A DNA stretch of 43,643 nucleotides from Microcystis aeruginosa Ma_MB_S_20031200_S102 (GTDB lineage Bacteria > Cyanobacteriota > Cyanobacteriia > Cyanobacteriales > Microcystaceae): assembly GCA_007095845.1 (NCBI GenBank), contig SFBI01000041.1, positions 1-43,643 of the forward strand. The letters run 5' to 3'. The notes beneath the pieces were generated by a model. It was not told the DNA's origin and did no database searches. It worked only from the letters and a program-made list of their open reading frames with translations. This document shows, in pieces, positions 5,165 to 25,879 of the stretch. The position numbers and the translations under genes were made by a program. The number at the start of each line of letters is the position of its first letter. The first letter of the stretch is position 1.

Positions 5165-5232
5165 TACTGCCTAATCAAACAACAATCTTAAGCTTTATCT
5201 CCTCAGTCCTCAACAGTGATAGAATTGCCCTC

Positions 5233-6716
<1,484 letters not shown>

Positions 6717-11760: not shown

Positions 11761-13146
11761 TTAAATTTCATCCCATCCACTTAAGCCAGAAGACATAACA
11801 TAACTGGTAACGGTTGCTTCAAAAAAGTTCGCTTTGGTGTGGCCTTCTTTTTTGGTATCGGAGAAGCGTTCCAGATGGTTATAGGGACTTTTGTTATACT
11901 TTTCTTCCCTGTATAAAGGCTCAAGTCCGATCGCTTTCAGTCGAATATTAGCAAGGTATTTAGTGTACTGTTCGGTACTGTATTCGGTAATACCTAAAAT
12001 ATTGTTGCCAACAATGTGATTTGTCCAGCGACATTCGTGTTTAACCGCATTATCGAACATCTCATAAATTTGTTCAACAGAATGGGGAAAAATTGCCATG
12101 GCTTCAGGAATAAGTTTCTGATACAAACGGACGTGACTTAATTCGTCCCGGTTGATCATTTTGAAAACGTCAGCGCTACCAGACATTAGCTGTCGAGAAG
12201 CGAGATTATAGAAAAAGATGACGCAACTACCCATCCTTTCAGAGTGGGGCTAGAACATACCATTATCTTCTTGAACCTTTTATAGCGTATTTACCAAGAA
12301 GATACTCACCCTCTGTTCGTTGAACCTTCCCCTTTAAAATAGAGGCTTGGCTGCTGATTACCCATTGTTTTTAATAGCTGCCTTACGGCTTTTATTAAAT
12401 CCCTTAACTTTTTTCTGCTCTCGCTCCTTTACGCTTATCTTTTCAGACTTCGCTTTGGCATAAGGGCTTTAGGGCTTCCCAGCAATTTGGCGAGTTTTAA
12501 CTAACACCTCACGATGCTAGTGGGCTACCTCATTATTTAACCCGTTATAAAAATACAAACTCTCTAGCAAATAGTCGGCAAGAAGGGCGATAAAATAGCT
12601 TTCAGTAGTTTGTTTGTCGATATACTGCTGGTAGAGACTAGCGATAAATTGACAGCGATCCTTGAGAACTTTATCGGTGCGCCAAAAGTCATAAACTTCA
12701 CCTCTGCGATCCGAGGGAATAATCGTTTCAATTAAGTATTGATAACTTTGATTGTGCATGGCTTCTTGAGAAATTTGTTCCGCCATACAAAGACTAATTT
12801 CTGGCGCAGTGACGCTACCTTTTAGGTGAGGAATATTACAGGTTTGTACGGAATCAAGAAAAGTTAGATAGGACAAAATACCATGATATGCATATCTTTC
12901 TTCGTCGGTAAGATGCCCGTATTCAGTCACGTCTTGAGTGATATCTAAGCGTTGCGGAATCCAGAAATTTTCCCGCATTTGTTGATATAAACCCACCGCC
13001 CAGGTGTAGCGGACATCGTTTAATTGCATCAGGTTGGTGGTGTTACCAAACCAGATCGAACGGTTTTCGATCGCATCATCTCCCGACGGATTGAAGATCG
13101 GGGAAATGGGCATCGAATGGCAAGAATTAACTAAATGTAAGGACAT
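11761..13146 (-). CDS. nrdB: Ribonucleotide reductase small subunit, split by a group I intron
   Basis: Exon 1 is 13146-12540 and exon 2 is 12221-11761; joined they give 355 residues. NrdB carries the di-iron centre and tyrosyl radical for class I ribonucleotide reductase. Ligands are all visible: Asp98 (FLDSVQ), Glu128 and His131 with radical Tyr135 (QEAMHNQSY), Glu195 (LLESLYFYNG), Glu229 and His232 (RDELSHVRLY). The intron falls in codon 203, eight codons after ligand Glu195, and splicing gives YNG-F-IFFYNLASRQ, the expected family sequence. Without splicing the protein ends at 12517 and loses two ligands. The 53-nt gap to the upstream DUF29 gene suggests a common transcript with nrdA. Confidence 0.93.
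12222..12539 (-). ncRNA. Group I self-splicing intron in nrdB (318 nt, no ORF)
   Basis: The core helices can be drawn by hand. P1: exon GGGU (12543-12540) with GCCC (12525-12522), U-G at the splice site. P2: CUAGCA/UGUUAG. P3: ACUCGCC (12495-12489) with GGUGAGU (12310-12304). P4: UGCUG/CAGCA. J4/5 GGAA. P5: GCCC/GGGU. P7: GAACA (12318-12314) with UGUUC (12257-12253). P8: a perfect 9-bp AUCUUCUUG stem. P10: AUGA (12533-12530) with exon UCAU. The intron ends in G at 12222, as required. There is no homing endonuclease, so mobility would need one in trans. Confidence 0.92.
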
Positions 13147-13199: not shown

Positions 13200-13646
13200 T
13201 CAAATGTTTTGATTAGGGATAAATTCAAAATCTAGGGCTTCTGCCAAAGTAAATGGGCAATTCTTCGGGAATTTCTCTAGGTTTATCCCTGTTTCAATAG
13301 CAGCTTTTTTTCTGGCTTTATTATAGCATTTTTTTAAATTTTCTTCTGTTAAAAAACTCTTAAGACTAGGGCTATTTTCTAAATCTTCTTCGATTCTTTC
13401 GCGATGCTCAAAAAGGGTTAATGCCCAGCTTCTGGTTTGTTTTTCTGGCTCTTGTAAGTATTTTAGTAAATGCCATAAAATCACGATCAGATTGCTTTTT
13501 AATGCTTTCTGTTGATTGATAGACATAGATTTTATTTCGTCAATTAAATTCTCTAAATCTAAATCAGAAAACTGATGATTTTCTAGTAAAGATATGGTTT
13601 TCTCTAACCAGAGATAGTAATCTTTTTCGTATAAGTTCTTTTCCAT
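13200..13646 (-). CDS. DUF29 family protein, copy 1
   Basis: A 148-residue soluble protein opens with the DUF29 signature LYEKDYYLWLEKTISLLENH followed by FSDLDLENLIDEIKSM. No function is established for DUF29; the fold is predicted to be helical. It is the last of three tandem paralogues between nrdA and nrdB. ATG 13646 is preferred because it aligns with the paralogues and has GGGG upstream; ATG 13658 overlaps the stop of copy 2 by one base (TAATG), so translation is probably coupled. The C-terminal half differs strongly from the other two copies. Confidence 0.85.
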   Translation of the reverse strand: MEKNLYEKDYYLWLEKTISLLENHQFSDLDLENLIDEIKSMSINQQKALKSNLIVILWHLLKYLQEPEKQTRSWALTLFEHRERIEEDLENSPSLKSFLTEENLKKCYNKARKKAAIETGINLEKFPKNCPFTLAEALDFEFIPNQNI

Positions 13647-13657
13647 AATTATCCCCA

Positions 13658-14110
13658 TTATTTTGATATTTCAGGAAACCAATCCTCATTTAACGCCTGT
13701 TCTATAGTGCAAATTGGAGCTAAACTGACCAAATTTTCAGCCATTCCCGATAATTCGATAAAAGAAATACGAGCTTCTTGAAAAGAGTTGTTAAAAATTT
13801 CAATCAGATAAGGCTGTAAACTAGGACTATCGGCAATAATTCTTTTTATGGCACGACGGAAATTCCTAATTTCATTTTTCCATCCTCTTTGATTATATTC
13901 TAATTCCGACTGCCAGTAAACCAGTTTTAGCAAATGTTCTAATAAGCGAGTTAAATAACTTTCTAAACTTCGTTTCTCGCTTTTACCCATGCTGCTAATT
14001 TCTTCAATTAAATTCTCTAAATCTAAATCAGAAAATTGATGATTTTCTAGTAAAGATCTGGTTTTCTCTATCCAGAGATAGTAATCTTTTTCGTATAAAT
14101 CATTCTTCAT
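13658..14110 (-). CDS. DUF29 family protein, copy 2
   Basis: A 150-residue paralogue with the same LYEKDYYLWIEKTRSLLENH start, then LLEHLLKLVYWQSELEYNQRG, a common DUF29 segment, and a PSLQPYLIEIFNNSFQEAR helix. The C-terminus is EDWFPE, the usual end for this family. The gap to copy 3 is 3 nt, so the genes are co-transcribed. The function is unknown. Confidence 0.85.
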   Translation of the reverse strand: MKNDLYEKDYYLWIEKTRSLLENHQFSDLDLENLIEEISSMGKSEKRSLESYLTRLLEHLLKLVYWQSELEYNQRGWKNEIRNFRRAIKRIIADSPSLQPYLIEIFNNSFQEARISFIELSGMAENLVSLAPICTIEQALNEDWFPEISK

Positions 14111-14113
14111 TGC

Positions 14114-14590
14114 TTAATCCTCTCCGAGAAACTCAGGAAACAAATTTTCATCTAAAATTTGGTCAATTGATCCAATAGGTGTAGCACTTAAAAGTCTTTT
14201 ATCAATGCCAGAACCTTCGACAAATAGATGGCAAGCATCCTCATAACATTGATCGAGAATCTCGGTGAGGTAAGATACTAAGTTTGTATGATAAGTTCCA
14301 TCCTTTTTATTGCTAATAATTCTTTTTATTTGAATCCGAAAATTTAAAATCTCTCGTCGCCACTTGTTTTTATTGTAATCGCGCTTAGATTGCCAATAAG
14401 TTAATTTAAGTAAATGTTCCAAGAGTTTAGTTAGTAAACTCTCTAACTTCTGACGTTCTCTTCTGGACGTATCTTTTATTTCTTCAATTAAATTTTCTAA
14501 ATCCAACTCAGAAAACTGGCGATTTTCTAGTAAAGATATGGTTTTCTCTAACCAGAGATAGTAATCCTGTTTGTATAAAGTCTTATCCAT
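14114..14590 (-). CDS. DUF29 family protein, copy 3
   Basis: A 158-residue paralogue (LYKQDYYLWLEKTISLLEN start, ENLFPEF end). I chose ATG 14590. A longer reading from 14695 would overlap the nrdA 3' end by 68 nt and adds 35 residues absent from the other copies. It starts 37 nt after the nrdA stop. It shares LLEHLLKLTYWQSKRDYN with copy 2, so copies 2 and 3 are the closer pair in the middle region, although copy 1 is nearly identical to copy 2 in the first 30 codons. Confidence 0.85.
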   Translation of the reverse strand: MDKTLYKQDYYLWLEKTISLLENRQFSELDLENLIEEIKDTSRRERQKLESLLTKLLEHLLKLTYWQSKRDYNKNKWRREILNFRIQIKRIISNKKDGTYHTNLVSYLTEILDQCYEDACHLFVEGSGIDKRLLSATPIGSIDQILDENLFPEFLGED

Positions 14591-14627
14591 AGGTGTGATT
14601 AATTGATGAATAAGACTTATCTTAGCT

Positions 14628-16940
14628 TTAATTAGCGCAACTAGAACAACTATCGTCAGACTCTCGAAAATTGTCCTTTTGCACGGTACGGACATAATAA
14701 ATCGCTTTACACCCCAATTCCCACGCCATGATTAGAGTATCAAAGATATCTTTAGCAGTGAGACAACGGTTAGGTTCTGCGGGAAAGTAAACCCCTTCAT
14801 TGAGGTTGAATAATAATTCCATAGAAATTCCTGTATCAATCCATTCTTGCATAGTAGCGATCGCTTTTACCACTTGCTGCTGTTCGAGGTTTTTATTCTC
14901 TGGATAAAACCAGAAAGATTCTTCAATAAAAGGTGGTGCGATGGGAACAGTTCCCTTTGCCCATTTATCGTAGAAAAAGCGACTATAAACCGGCAAAACA
15001 CTAGCGGTACATCCCTGTACCAAACTGGAGGAAGTATTAGGAGCAATGGCAGTAATATGGGAATTACGGATGCCAAATCGTTGAATATCTTCGGCTAATT
15101 GTTGCCATCTTTGCGGTTGCACTGCGTTATTTAAAAACCATTCCACTGGTTTAGCACCGATTAATTTACCTTGACTCCATTCGCTACCCAAGAAAGCTTG
15201 ATAAGCGCCGCGTTCTTTGGCTAATTCCATCGAAGAATAGGTACACCAATAGCCAATTTCTTCAAATAAATCACTAATTTCTGACAGGTTATTGTAGGAT
15301 AATTTCCGTTTAGCTAACCAGTCAGCCAATCCCATCGCCCCTACCCCAATAGTGCGATATTTATCGTTGTGGTTTTTAGCATTATCAAAGGGAGGATTAG
15401 TAATATCAATAGTATTGTCGAGAATCCTGACAGCGATTTGACAATTAGACTCGATTTCTTCCCTGTCAATGTTGGCCAAATTAAGGCTAACTAAATTACA
15501 GCAATGGGCAGTTTTATCGGGGGTGACATTCGAGAAACTCTCGGTGCATAAATTTACACCGGGGATGTAGCCATCGTGTTTATTAGGGTTAGCGCGATTA
15601 ATGGTATCTTTGAAAGCAATATAGGGCATTCCTGTTTCCACTTGAGAACGCATGATACTTTTAAATAATTCCCGAGCATTAATTTTTTTATAGAGAAAAA
15701 TCTCTCTATCTAAATTAGCTTCTACTAAACGATATGCCTTTTCAAATTCTTCCCCCCATAGTTGCGCTAATTCTATACCTAACTTATTGCGAACTTCGTA
15801 GGGATCTACTAATGTCCATTCGGTTTTATCTATCACCCGACGCATAAATTCATCGGTGATAACTAATTGGGGAAAAACATCATAAGCTTTGCGTCTTTGA
15901 TCACCATTTTCTGTCTGCATTTCCAGAAACTCTGGCACATCTAAATGCCAGATATCAACACCGATAGTTACTGCTCCAGCGCGTCTTCCCCCCTGATTTA
16001 CTGCAATAGCTGTATCGTTGAGTAATTTAATCCAGGGAATAATTCCGCCGGAAGCATTAGCTTTCCCCATTACCCAGCTACCAGTAGAGCGAATTCTACT
16101 CACATTCACCCCGACACCGCCACCATTTTTGGAGATGCGGGCAGCATTAGTAATCTCGCTAAAAATGCTTTCTAAACTGTCGTCAATGGAAAGTATAAAA
16201 CAACTGGTTAGGGAACTTTTTGGTGTGCGTAAATTGGCTAAAATTGGGGTGGCAAGAGAAATTTTTCTTTGGGCAATCCCTTGATAAAATTTCTTAGCCC
16301 AGTGGAGTCTATTAGCTGGTTCTTCCACAGTGGCAAGCAGTAAGGAACAGGTTAATAATGCCTCTTGGGGTAACTCATTTTTGAGTAAATAACGGCTAGT
16401 AATTAATAATGCCCCGGCGTAATCGTAATCGATATCCCAATCGGGATTAATCCAAGAACCAGCTTCTTTTAATTCTGCTTCGGAATAGATGAGAATCCTT
16501 TCGTCGTACAGCCGATTTTTAACTTGAGTTTTGACAGTTTTCTCGTAATTTCCGTACTGATAACCCCGCGCTACTAAGGTATCTTTCCACAGACTCCAAA
16601 TGTGCAATCTTCCCGCCACATAGCGCCAATCCGGTTCCTCGGGACTACACATTTCTAGGGCGCAATTAATTAAATTATCCTGTATTTCCCTAGTGGTAAT
16701 CCCATCCCGCAGACGTGTGGTTAAACCCGCTTCTAAGGCGATCGAATTGACTTTTTTACCTTCACAAGCCCACTCTACCACGTCGCGAATTTTGCCGATA
16801 TTTAAGCTGGTGGTGGAACCATCGCGCCGAATCACTCTAATTCCATGGCTGCCCATATTAGCTAAAGGGGTAGAACGAAAGGGTATTACTTCGTTATTTT
16901 TGTGAATGGAGACGGCAGTAGTCAAGGGCTTCGATTGCAT
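14628..16940 (-). CDS. nrdA: Ribonucleotide reductase class I large subunit
   Basis: This enzyme reduces ribonucleoside diphosphates to deoxy forms for DNA synthesis, with NrdB as radical donor. It has 770 residues. An ATP-cone allosteric domain (HGIRVIRRDGSTTSLNIGKI, about 32-120) comes first. The catalytic barrel has Cys247 (TSCFIL), the NLCTE motif with Cys465, Asn463 and Glu467, and Cys481 in CNLVSLNL. PNTSSS near residue 640 is the substrate phosphate loop. The C-terminal tail ends CSSCAN, the redox cysteine pair that re-reduces the active site. ATG 16940 starts it. It is the first gene of an operon with three DUF29 genes and nrdB. Confidence 0.97.
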   Translation of the reverse strand: MQSKPLTTAVSIHKNNEVIPFRSTPLANMGSHGIRVIRRDGSTTSLNIGKIRDVVEWACEGKKVNSIALEAGLTTRLRDGITTREIQDNLINCALEMCSPEEPDWRYVAGRLHIWSLWKDTLVARGYQYGNYEKTVKTQVKNRLYDERILIYSEAELKEAGSWINPDWDIDYDYAGALLITSRYLLKNELPQEALLTCSLLLATVEEPANRLHWAKKFYQGIAQRKISLATPILANLRTPKSSLTSCFILSIDDSLESIFSEITNAARISKNGGGVGVNVSRIRSTGSWVMGKANASGGIIPWIKLLNDTAIAVNQGGRRAGAVTIGVDIWHLDVPEFLEMQTENGDQRRKAYDVFPQLVITDEFMRRVIDKTEWTLVDPYEVRNKLGIELAQLWGEEFEKAYRLVEANLDREIFLYKKINARELFKSIMRSQVETGMPYIAFKDTINRANPNKHDGYIPGVNLCTESFSNVTPDKTAHCCNLVSLNLANIDREEIESNCQIAVRILDNTIDITNPPFDNAKNHNDKYRTIGVGAMGLADWLAKRKLSYNNLSEISDLFEEIGYWCTYSSMELAKERGAYQAFLGSEWSQGKLIGAKPVEWFLNNAVQPQRWQQLAEDIQRFGIRNSHITAIAPNTSSSLVQGCTASVLPVYSRFFYDKWAKGTVPIAPPFIEESFWFYPENKNLEQQQVVKAIATMQEWIDTGISMELLFNLNEGVYFPAEPNRCLTAKDIFDTLIMAWELGCKAIYYVRTVQKDNFRESDDSCSSCAN

Positions 16941-17192: not shown

Positions 17193-17280
17193 AAGTTCGA
17201 GGATGGGACAACTTGACCAATCTACGGTAGGGATAGGGGAGCGATCGAGGTAAGATTTGAGAGTATCTAATCTTTTTCCT

Positions 17281-18747
17281 ATGTTCGAGCAGACATTTAA
17301 GAATATCGATGATATTCTCCGAAAAGAGGCGGGGTGCGCGACGGAGTTGGATTACGCGGAACAGATTTCCTGGATTCTCTTTTTGAAATATCTCGACGAT
17401 TTGGAGGTCGATCGCCAGAATCGGGCGTTATTAACAGGAGAAGACTACGATCCGTTACTAGACGAACCCTATCGCTGGTCGAATTGGGCCTACCCCAAGG
17501 ACGCAAGGGGTGAACTGCTGAAAACCGCTAAGGTAGGGGACGATCTGATCGAGTTCGTCAATAGCGAGCTATTTCCCTACTTTCAGGGATTCAAGGAATA
17601 CGCAGAACCGGGGACATTCGGGGCTAAGATCGGGGAAATTTTTGCGGGGGTGCGGAATAAGTTTCAGAGCGGGTACAACCTGCGGGAAGTTCTCGAAAGT
17701 ATCGACCGGCTTCAGTTTCGCACGCAACAGCAGAAACACGAACTTTCGGATCTCTACGAAACCCGGATTAAAAATATGGGCAACGCAGGGCGAAACGGGG
17801 GCGAGTACTACACCCCGCGGCCCCTGATCCGAGCGATGATTCAAGTGATTAAACCGCAATTAGGGGAGACGATTTACGACGGGGCCTGCGGTTCGGCGGG
17901 GTTTCTCTGCGAGGCCTACGAGTATTTACGCCACAGTAAGGCCGATCTGAGTACGAAAGAGCTAGAAACCCTACAGACGAGGACTTTTTTCGGCAAGGAG
18001 AAAAAGGCTTTAGCCTATATTATCGGGGTGATGAATATGATCCTGCACGGGATCGAGGCCCCCAATATTATTCAGACCAACACCCTGGCCGAAGATATTC
18101 AAGCGATTCAAGAGAAGAATCGTTACCACATCGTTTTAGCTAATCCCCCCTTCGGAGGCAGCGAACGCAAGGAAATCCGCGGCAATTTCACGATCAATAC
18201 CGGGGAGACGGCCTTTCTTTTTCTCCAGCATTTCATCAAGAGTTTGAAAACTGGGGGACGGGGTGCGATCGTTATTAAAAATACCTTCCTGTCGAACGCG
18301 GACAACGGCTCTAGAGAGTTACGGAGGGAGTTAACCTCCTCCTGTAATCTCCATACGGTTTTGGATTGTCCCGCTAAGACGTTTTTAGGTGCGGGGGTAA
18401 AGACGGTGGTTTTATTTTTTACCAAGGGTTCGCCGACGCAGAAAATCTGGTTTTATCAACTCGATCCGGGGCGAAGTCTGGGAAAAACAAACGCACTCAA
18501 TGATGATGATTTGCAAGAGTTCATCGAGTTTCAATCGACTTTTAAGCTATCGGAGCGCTCTTGGTTTTTAGACTTAGAAGAAGTCGATCTGGGTTCCTTC
18601 GATCTGTCGGTGAAAAATCCCAACGCACCGGAGGGCGATCCTTTACGCGAGCCGGAAGAAATTTTAGCGGAGATTGCGGAATTGGACCGGGAAAGTGGGT
18701 CGATTTTAGAGGCGATTTCTGATCTATTGGGGTCTTCTCCTAGTTGA
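17281..18747 (+). CDS. hsdM: Type I restriction-modification methyltransferase subunit HsdM
   Basis: This subunit methylates adenine (N6) at the site chosen by HsdS, using S-adenosylmethionine. With ATG 17281 it has 488 residues: helical HsdM N-domain (FEQTFKNIDDILRKEAGCAT), EYYTPRPLIRAMI, SAM-binding DGACGSAGF (200-208), catalytic NPPF (288-291) and a C-terminal tail that contacts HsdS. TTG 17257 with GAGG upstream would add eight residues; homologues begin near MFEQTF, so I prefer the ATG. The frame is uninterrupted, unlike hsdS and hsdR downstream. An orphan methylase role would still need a specificity subunit. Confidence 0.95.
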   Translation: MFEQTFKNIDDILRKEAGCATELDYAEQISWILFLKYLDDLEVDRQNRALLTGEDYDPLLDEPYRWSNWAYPKDARGELLKTAKVGDDLIEFVNSELFPYFQGFKEYAEPGTFGAKIGEIFAGVRNKFQSGYNLREVLESIDRLQFRTQQQKHELSDLYETRIKNMGNAGRNGGEYYTPRPLIRAMIQVIKPQLGETIYDGACGSAGFLCEAYEYLRHSKADLSTKELETLQTRTFFGKEKKALAYIIGVMNMILHGIEAPNIIQTNTLAEDIQAIQEKNRYHIVLANPPFGGSERKEIRGNFTINTGETAFLFLQHFIKSLKTGGRGAIVIKNTFLSNADNGSRELRRELTSSCNLHTVLDCPAKTFLGAGVKTVVLFFTKGSPTQKIWFYQLDPGRSLGKTNALNDDDLQEFIEFQSTFKLSERSWFLDLEEVDLGSFDLSVKNPNAPEGDPLREPEEILAEIAELDRESGSILEAISDLLGSSPS

Positions 18748-25479: not shown

Positions 25480-25491
25480 TAAACTAATCAA

Positions 25492-25879
25492 TGGAGCCGA
25501 GCAGAGTCGAACTGCTGTCCAAATTAGGTATTGACTGTCCGTTCATTCACAGGTTTAGTTTCGATTACCCTCGAAACGGGGACTGTCACTTATCCCGGAC
25601 AGTGGGATGCTCTAGTTAAAGCTTAGACGGTTAACTAACTAGAGAAAGTTAAACGTGGCATCCGTTGGGGGTTTATCCATAGTCCTTAACGGAGTCAAAC
25701 TATGAATGCTCGAGTCGATTAGAGACTATTAGGCAGCTACAGGAGCGGCTTTACGAGCGAAAGGAACGATGTTGTTCGCATTTACTTTTTGTTTGAGCCT
25801 TTGATTTACGAGAGGAGACTCACTCTCGACCTGTATCACGGGGGAGCTTTCGCTAACCTGTCGAAACCGTTACGGCCCC
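25492..25879 (-). ncRNA. ssrA: Transfer-messenger RNA (tmRNA)
   Basis: tmRNA rescues stalled ribosomes and tags the nascent protein for degradation. The 5' end GGGGCCGTAACGGTTTCGAC pairs with the 3' end (CGGCTCC, discriminator A at 25492; CCA is not encoded). The T-arm is GTTCGACTC. The tag frame reads ANNIVPFARKAAPVAA and then TAA, the typical cyanobacterial tag. Length is 388 nt in one piece. Confidence 0.98.

Follow-up and report, generated by a model that had tools for sequence, protein, structure and literature searches.

The nrdB gene of Microcystis aeruginosa Ma_MB_S_20031200_S102 is very probably interrupted by a splicing-competent group I intron that lacks an open reading frame and that represents the short form of an intron lineage specific for codon 203, most likely after loss of its ORF. 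The window analysed here, that is the whole stretch of 43,643 nucleotides from contig SFBI01000041.1, carries nrdB on the minus strand as two ORFs (13146-12517 and 12234-11761), each with a separate portion of PF00268.

Interruption of nrdB by a group I intron

An Rfam search of the window returned RF00028 at 12559-12230 (minus strand) over the whole model (1-253) with 67.9 bits, compared to a gathering score of 50, and an E-value of 3e-15. This search bears out the initial annotation, which had read the interruption of nrdB as a group I intron. The match is the sole one for RF00028 in the genome, and no other Rfam family reached its gathering score in the intron region. Once joined, the two exons (Table 1) encode an NrdB of 355 aa whose junction reads YNGFIFFYNLASRQ, the restored family sequence that had been predicted, and the same residues are encoded by uninterrupted Microcystis alleles. 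The joined protein aligns with a solved class I beta subunit from residue 11 to 348 and is 99% and 97% identical to NrdB of two named Microcystis records. The intron is inserted in phase 1 in the codon for Phe203. Inspection of the joined protein located E195 upstream and E229 and H232 downstream of the insertion, just as had been proposed; we take these three residues to be metal ligands of NrdB. The intron itself was also correctly described as ORF-less, since none of its three sense frames contains an open stretch of 60 codons.

The genome, for which an assembly completeness of 99.68% is given, contains one PF02867 gene and one PF00268 gene, so that the class I enzyme should need splicing. 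Three DUF29 ORFs are situated in a row at 13200-14695 (minus strand) between nrdA and nrdB. Elsewhere the window features a TPP riboswitch (5229-5325, plus strand; RF00059, 67.4 bits) just 5' of an ORF at 5334-6716, a tmRNA gene (25489-25879, minus strand) with the tag ANNIVPFARKAAPVAA and an HsdM-like N-6 DNA methylase gene (17257-18747, plus strand).

Table 1 Features of the interrupted nrdB locus and predicted helices of the intron (window coordinates).
Feature	Position	Strand	Evidence
nrdA, partner subunit, in one piece	14628..16940	-	PF02867, PF00317, PF03477
nrdB exon 1, codons 1-202 and first base of codon 203	12540..13146	-	PF00268; intact frame upon joining
Group I intron, 318 nt	12222..12539	-	RF00028, 67.9 bits; insertion relative to empty alleles; reading frames
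nrdB exon 2	11761..12221	-	PF00268; intact frame upon joining
P1, exon GGGU 12543-12540 with GCCC 12525-12522, U.G at 5' splice site	12522..12543	-	GGGU/GCCC kept in 19/19 rows
P2 hairpin	12501..12520	-	paired cells 130/133; compensated pairs 1
P3 5' strand, partner 12310-12304	12489..12495	-	paired cells 133/133; compensated pairs 2
P4 5' strand, partner 12357-12352	12479..12484	-	paired cells 114/114; invariant
P5, 12474-12472 with 12363-12361, enclosing a multi-hairpin peripheral extension	12361..12474	-	P5 invariant; compensated pairs in extension 8
P6	12324..12351	-	paired cells 132/133; compensated pairs 4
P7 5' strand GAACA, partner UGUUC 12257-12253	12314..12318	-	paired cells 95/95; invariant
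P8, 12303-12294 with 12274-12265	12265..12303	-	paired cells 175/190 (15 unpaired); compensated pairs 5
P9 region	12227..12252	-	RF00028 match; comparative fold
Terminal G of intron	12222..12222	-	G in 20/20 rows

Splice sites and predicted fold

Judged from the sequence alone, the intron boundary is free to slide one base rightwards. We place it at 12539/12222, the ends initially assigned, because here the exon U pairs with G and the intron ends in G. Among the aligned introns from the same site (see below) the exon U is paired with G at the 5' site in all 19 rows having the upstream exon, and the terminal G is present at the 3' site in 20 of 20; these counts were taken from sites placed by protein match, and the motif-based excision of the introns itself required GGGT and a final G.

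A fold of the window copy as a P1-P9 group I ribozyme is supported by comparison of the related introns. The RNAalifold structure together with P7 comprises 87 pairs, with 1624 of 1646 cells being standard, 21 pairs compensated and 52 invariant; the 19 distinct rows include seven near-identical Microcystis ones and omit L156, whose stretch lacks the upstream exon. When the partners were slid by 1-3 columns as a control, 556-776 standard cells and 3-9 compensated pairs were obtained. Included in the 87 pairs are the outer four of a P9-adjacent helix without compensated pairs, which have columns in common with the 3' strand of P7 and are maybe spurious. Since these same rows, which are related to each other, also served to derive the structure, we regard the pairing counts as support for the fold and not as an independent test of it. 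Compensatory changes are found in P2, P3, P6, P8, the P5 extension and the tip of P9, while P4, P5, P7 (presumably the guanosine-binding helix) and five of the six P1 pairs never vary. The core helices P3-P8 with the P3/P7 pseudoknot are kept in the relatives, and the P8 loop (L8) of the window intron is the place where relatives hold an endonuclease ORF. Of the helices drawn in the initial annotation, P1 to P8 are thus backed by comparison, as is P9, whereas P10 stands in part: 18 of 19 rows have a pairing of 3-4 nt, for which the exon side of one row has to be moved by one base, and L162 has none.

The minimum free energy of the window intron is ordinary for its composition (z = -0.71; 23 of 100 shuffles as good), and folding energy was dropped as evidence for the fold. 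Introns of subgroup IA, which is typical of phages, have extra P7.1/P7.2 helices between the 5' strand of P7 and the 3' strand of P3. The window intron has only 3 nt (12313-12311) at this place, and assignment to subgroup IA was thus rejected.

Three allele states in Microcystis

The nrdB gene is present in all of 12 Microcystis genomes, and codon 203 was found in three states. It is empty in five genomes (G002, G003, G005, G009, G010), which provides the intron-less strains that had been called for; it carries the 318-nt ORF-less form in four, the window's included (G000, G001, G006, G011; in G001 a contig end cuts exon 1), and a form of 1014 nt in three (G004, G007, G008). The seven intron-bearing alleles differ from the five empty ones by the intron and by substitutions, the intron being the sole length change there. 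These data bear on the alternative that the intron has degenerated and lost splicing, leaving a broken gene of which two fragments are made apart. Both halves are indeed open frames, each with its own ATG. However, the window exons are 95-98% identical to the five uninterrupted alleles, the gene is the sole PF00268 gene of a nearly complete assembly, and the core helices are, by eye, intact in the four Microcystis mini-introns except for one P8 mismatch in G001. We consider a broken gene extremely unlikely and assume that the intron is spliced.

The ribozyme parts of the 1014-nt and 318-nt forms are 96-98% identical up to position 244 or 260 and 98-100% identical over the last 60 positions. 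In L8 the long form contains a 225-aa ORF for a GIY-YIG endonuclease (PF01541, 36.3 bits with a cut-off of 22.6, E = 6.9e-9; one copy run). The two ORF-bearing Microcystis introns that were run scored 42.4 and 42.2 bits, which is under the gathering score of RF00028. Genomes carrying the mini form, the window's among them, gave no relative of the GIY-YIG ORF at E <= 0.001. The loop-L5 variants TATG and TAAA are each found with both L8 states, which suggests either recombination among introns or more than one loss of the ORF.

Among 61 exon SNPs with the minor allele in at least two genomes (G001 contributes no sequence beyond -172 upstream, nor G009 beyond -416), perfect tracking of intron presence is confined to positions -2 and +2 of the junction; the remaining SNPs within 50 nt show an r2 of at most 0.47. 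Both changes are synonymous. GGC to GGG at -2 completes P1, and TTT to TTC at +2 fits a possible P10 partner in Microcystis. All 19 intron-bearing alleles have GGG as codon 202, compared to 20 of 85 empty alleles, a count in which two assemblies appear twice and the rows are related. Presence and absence of the intron within the genus, together with the loss of linkage so close to the site, are patterns that may bear on homing, although ordinary recombination in the genus could also be the source of the SNP pattern.

Introns at the same site across the order

A DNA search in a sample of 388 genomes of the order gave matches at E <= 0.001 in 24, and in 20 of the 388 a related intron is located at codon 203 of nrdB. 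The other four (G071, G103, G136, G357) show weaker, partial intron matches, in G136 with an endonuclease match beside it. A pattern search in a sample of 386 genomes of the phylum yielded seven matches, all already among those of the order. In each of the 20 loci fetched (7 Microcystis, 13 other genera) exon 2 starts at codon 204 beside the intron; both splice sites are visible in 19, the stretch of L156 containing the downstream exon only. The introns fall into lengths of 291-318 nt (eight), 380 and 408 nt (two) and 1001-1120 nt (nine). All nine long ones, out of 19, contain in L8 an ORF homologous to the Microcystis endonuclease (43-100% identity), which in G265 matches only in residues 3-203 of 225.

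This distribution bears on how the short form arose. Conceivably, the mini-intron is ancestral and L8 acquired the endonuclease ORF in one or several later events. ORF-less forms of 291-318 nt are spread over three genera of the sample (g1, g6, g66) and occur on a phage contig (see below), as would be expected in this case, and the window copy has no clear ORF remnant of its own. On the other hand, the L8 ORFs are homologous across genera, and the two introns of intermediate length resemble long forms in decay: as judged by eye, that of G152 (380 nt) still encodes a C-terminal piece of the endonuclease and that of G289 (408 nt) retains the stretch leading into the G265 ORF, which fits loss. 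We therefore regard an ancestral mini-intron as rather unlikely and favour loss of the ORF from a long form.

Genus g66 is close to Planktothrix, as shown by identities of 82-98% between the four loci compared and Planktothrix sp. UBA8402; in nrdB of the latter, codon 203 is empty and an intron is located at codon 63. All of the best 80 named nrdB loci are uninterrupted at codon 203, in a ranking that puts unbroken genes first.

Other breaks in nrdB were observed as well. In the Microcystis genome G009 (L137), a different insertion of ~797 nt at codon 63/64 gives a weak RF00028 match (31.8 bits) and has a 177-aa ORF with no Pfam match over the cut-off, which may be HNH-like by our own reading. 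The gene is broken at codon 63 also in L103, L104, L105, L107 and L109-L111, with RF00028 matches in L104 and L109-L111, and in L097 (Crocosphaera watsonii WH 8501) ~2.4 kb break it at codon 42/43. A second break at codon 227 is present in six of the 20 loci (L153, L155, L157, L161, L163, L164); in L164 the piece after it falls outside the fetched stretch.

A related intron on a phage contig

Of 68 IMG/VR loci encoding a close NrdB, some of which may belong to hosts, 66 continue across the site without a break. One further locus is a fragment ending ahead of the site, and the last, L256, is broken exactly at 203/204. Its contig of 43,790 bases matches RF00028 at the nrdB break with 66.5 bits. 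The intron is ORF-less, 289 nt long and flanked by exon GGGT and a terminal G as in the cyanobacterial copies, and it shares 76.5% identity with the window intron and 75.5-80.3% with the remaining 18 introns of this site. PHROGs searches were run with 14 ORFs of the contig, ten of them from the 20 ORFs of at least 150 aa in its rest, and gave matches to tail sheath, major head and portal (three), reductase subunits (two) and anti-repressors (one). The structural matches mark it, by gene content, as a phage of the contractile-tail kind; a search of the phage record with PF03237 (terminase) gave no match. The contig also encodes a reductase large subunit of 875 aa (L258:13845-16472), the middle of which matches the endonuclease family phrog_4645 and is perhaps an intein, and has a single open frame of 3686 aa (L258:72-11132).

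Two IMG/VR search patterns close to the cyanobacterial copies had no match, and two looser ones led to one contig, that of L256. Relatives of the endonuclease in IMG/VR numbered three (24-38% identity), and 10 records of named phages matched it, all under 60% identity. Intron DNA matched 113 records of named phages, none covering 80% of the query and, in the 20 of these 113 listed, with partial core similarity only. Nine Microcystis-phage records (seven phages, two present twice), found among the best 25 of 2909 records, have an nrdB with 45% identity that was matched uninterrupted. Phage carriage of the codon-203 intron family is shown by the contig of L256. A phage origin, which the initial annotation held plausible, gains from a phage contig with the same family at the same codon and loses from the uninterrupted nrdB of the Microcystis phages; the tree is unrooted, and transfer may have run in either direction.

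Relation to known introns

Ribonucleotide reductase genes of cyanobacteria and phages are already known as hosts of group I introns; the initial annotation had pointed to phage and a few bacterial nrd genes. According to excerpts of PMC12702839, PMC1995217 and PMC3984707, Meng et al. (2007) described one for Nostoc punctiforme PCC 73102, where it interrupts the ribonucleotide reductase (RIR) gene; like the window's it is a group I intron in a cyanobacterial reductase gene, but by the title of that paper it carries an insertion sequence. Excerpts of PMC3653736 and PMC2988022 report group I introns in the reductase genes of T4 (nrdB) and many other phages. The T4 nrdB intron with I-TevIII, as excerpted from PMC2988022, parallels the present case as an nrdB group I intron with a crippled endonuclease beside intact forms elsewhere, although its endonuclease is of the HNH type whereas the window's relatives have GIY-YIG. 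It is located near the same Glu, about two codons further downstream if the T4 junction is placed correctly, and matches RF00028 with only 35.7 bits. In Alicyclobacillus phage KKP_3916 (L171), nrdB has a group I-like insertion (RF00028, 32.0 bits, E = 0.00024, below gathering) at codon 227 instead of 203, the codon of the second break in the cyanobacterial loci. A tRNA-gene intron present in most cyanobacterial genomes (excerpt of PMC4476775) is likewise group I but has a different host gene. Cyanobacterial nrdE introns from two papers are cited in an excerpt of PMC3984707, group I introns in protein-coding regions of Arthrospira NIES-39 in one of PMC11395459, and the excerpted part of a Microcystis paper (PMC11448079) mentions group I intron endonucleases in general terms. 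A literature search that was thin on subscription journals found no nrdB intron of Microcystis or Planktothrix.

Proposed life cycle of the intron

We propose that the intron RNA folds to the P1-P9 ribozyme, upon which an external guanosine would attack behind the exon U of P1, releasing the exon for an attack behind the terminal G that would yield an intact NrdB mRNA. The intron belongs to a site-specific lineage found at this nrdB codon in several genera of cyanobacteria and on a phage contig; its full form has an ORF for a GIY-YIG homing endonuclease in L8, and the window copy is a short form, most likely after ORF loss. Without an endonuclease of its own the window copy would now spread only by recombination or by an endonuclease from elsewhere. 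The initial annotation assumed that splicing would gate dNTP supply. That PF02867 and PF00268 are each represented by a single gene in the genome would fit such a regulated switch, but the site is empty in five of the 12 Microcystis genomes and the region contains no other Rfam family at its gathering score, and we judge a switch highly unlikely.

The presence of an intron accounts for the annotation of a seemingly broken gene that is presumably essential. With some but limited confidence we envisage that one site-specific lineage is shuttled between cyanobacteria and their phages via matching nrdB genes and cycles through empty, endonuclease and mini states within a genus, the mini form persisting because it is neutral or because it by now serves to control the sole class I ribonucleotide reductase. 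The parts worth following are the allele series and the phage-borne counterpart: empty, mini and endonuclease-bearing alleles at one codon, together with that phage copy, represent a natural system in which the life cycle of a bacterial mobile intron can readily be studied.
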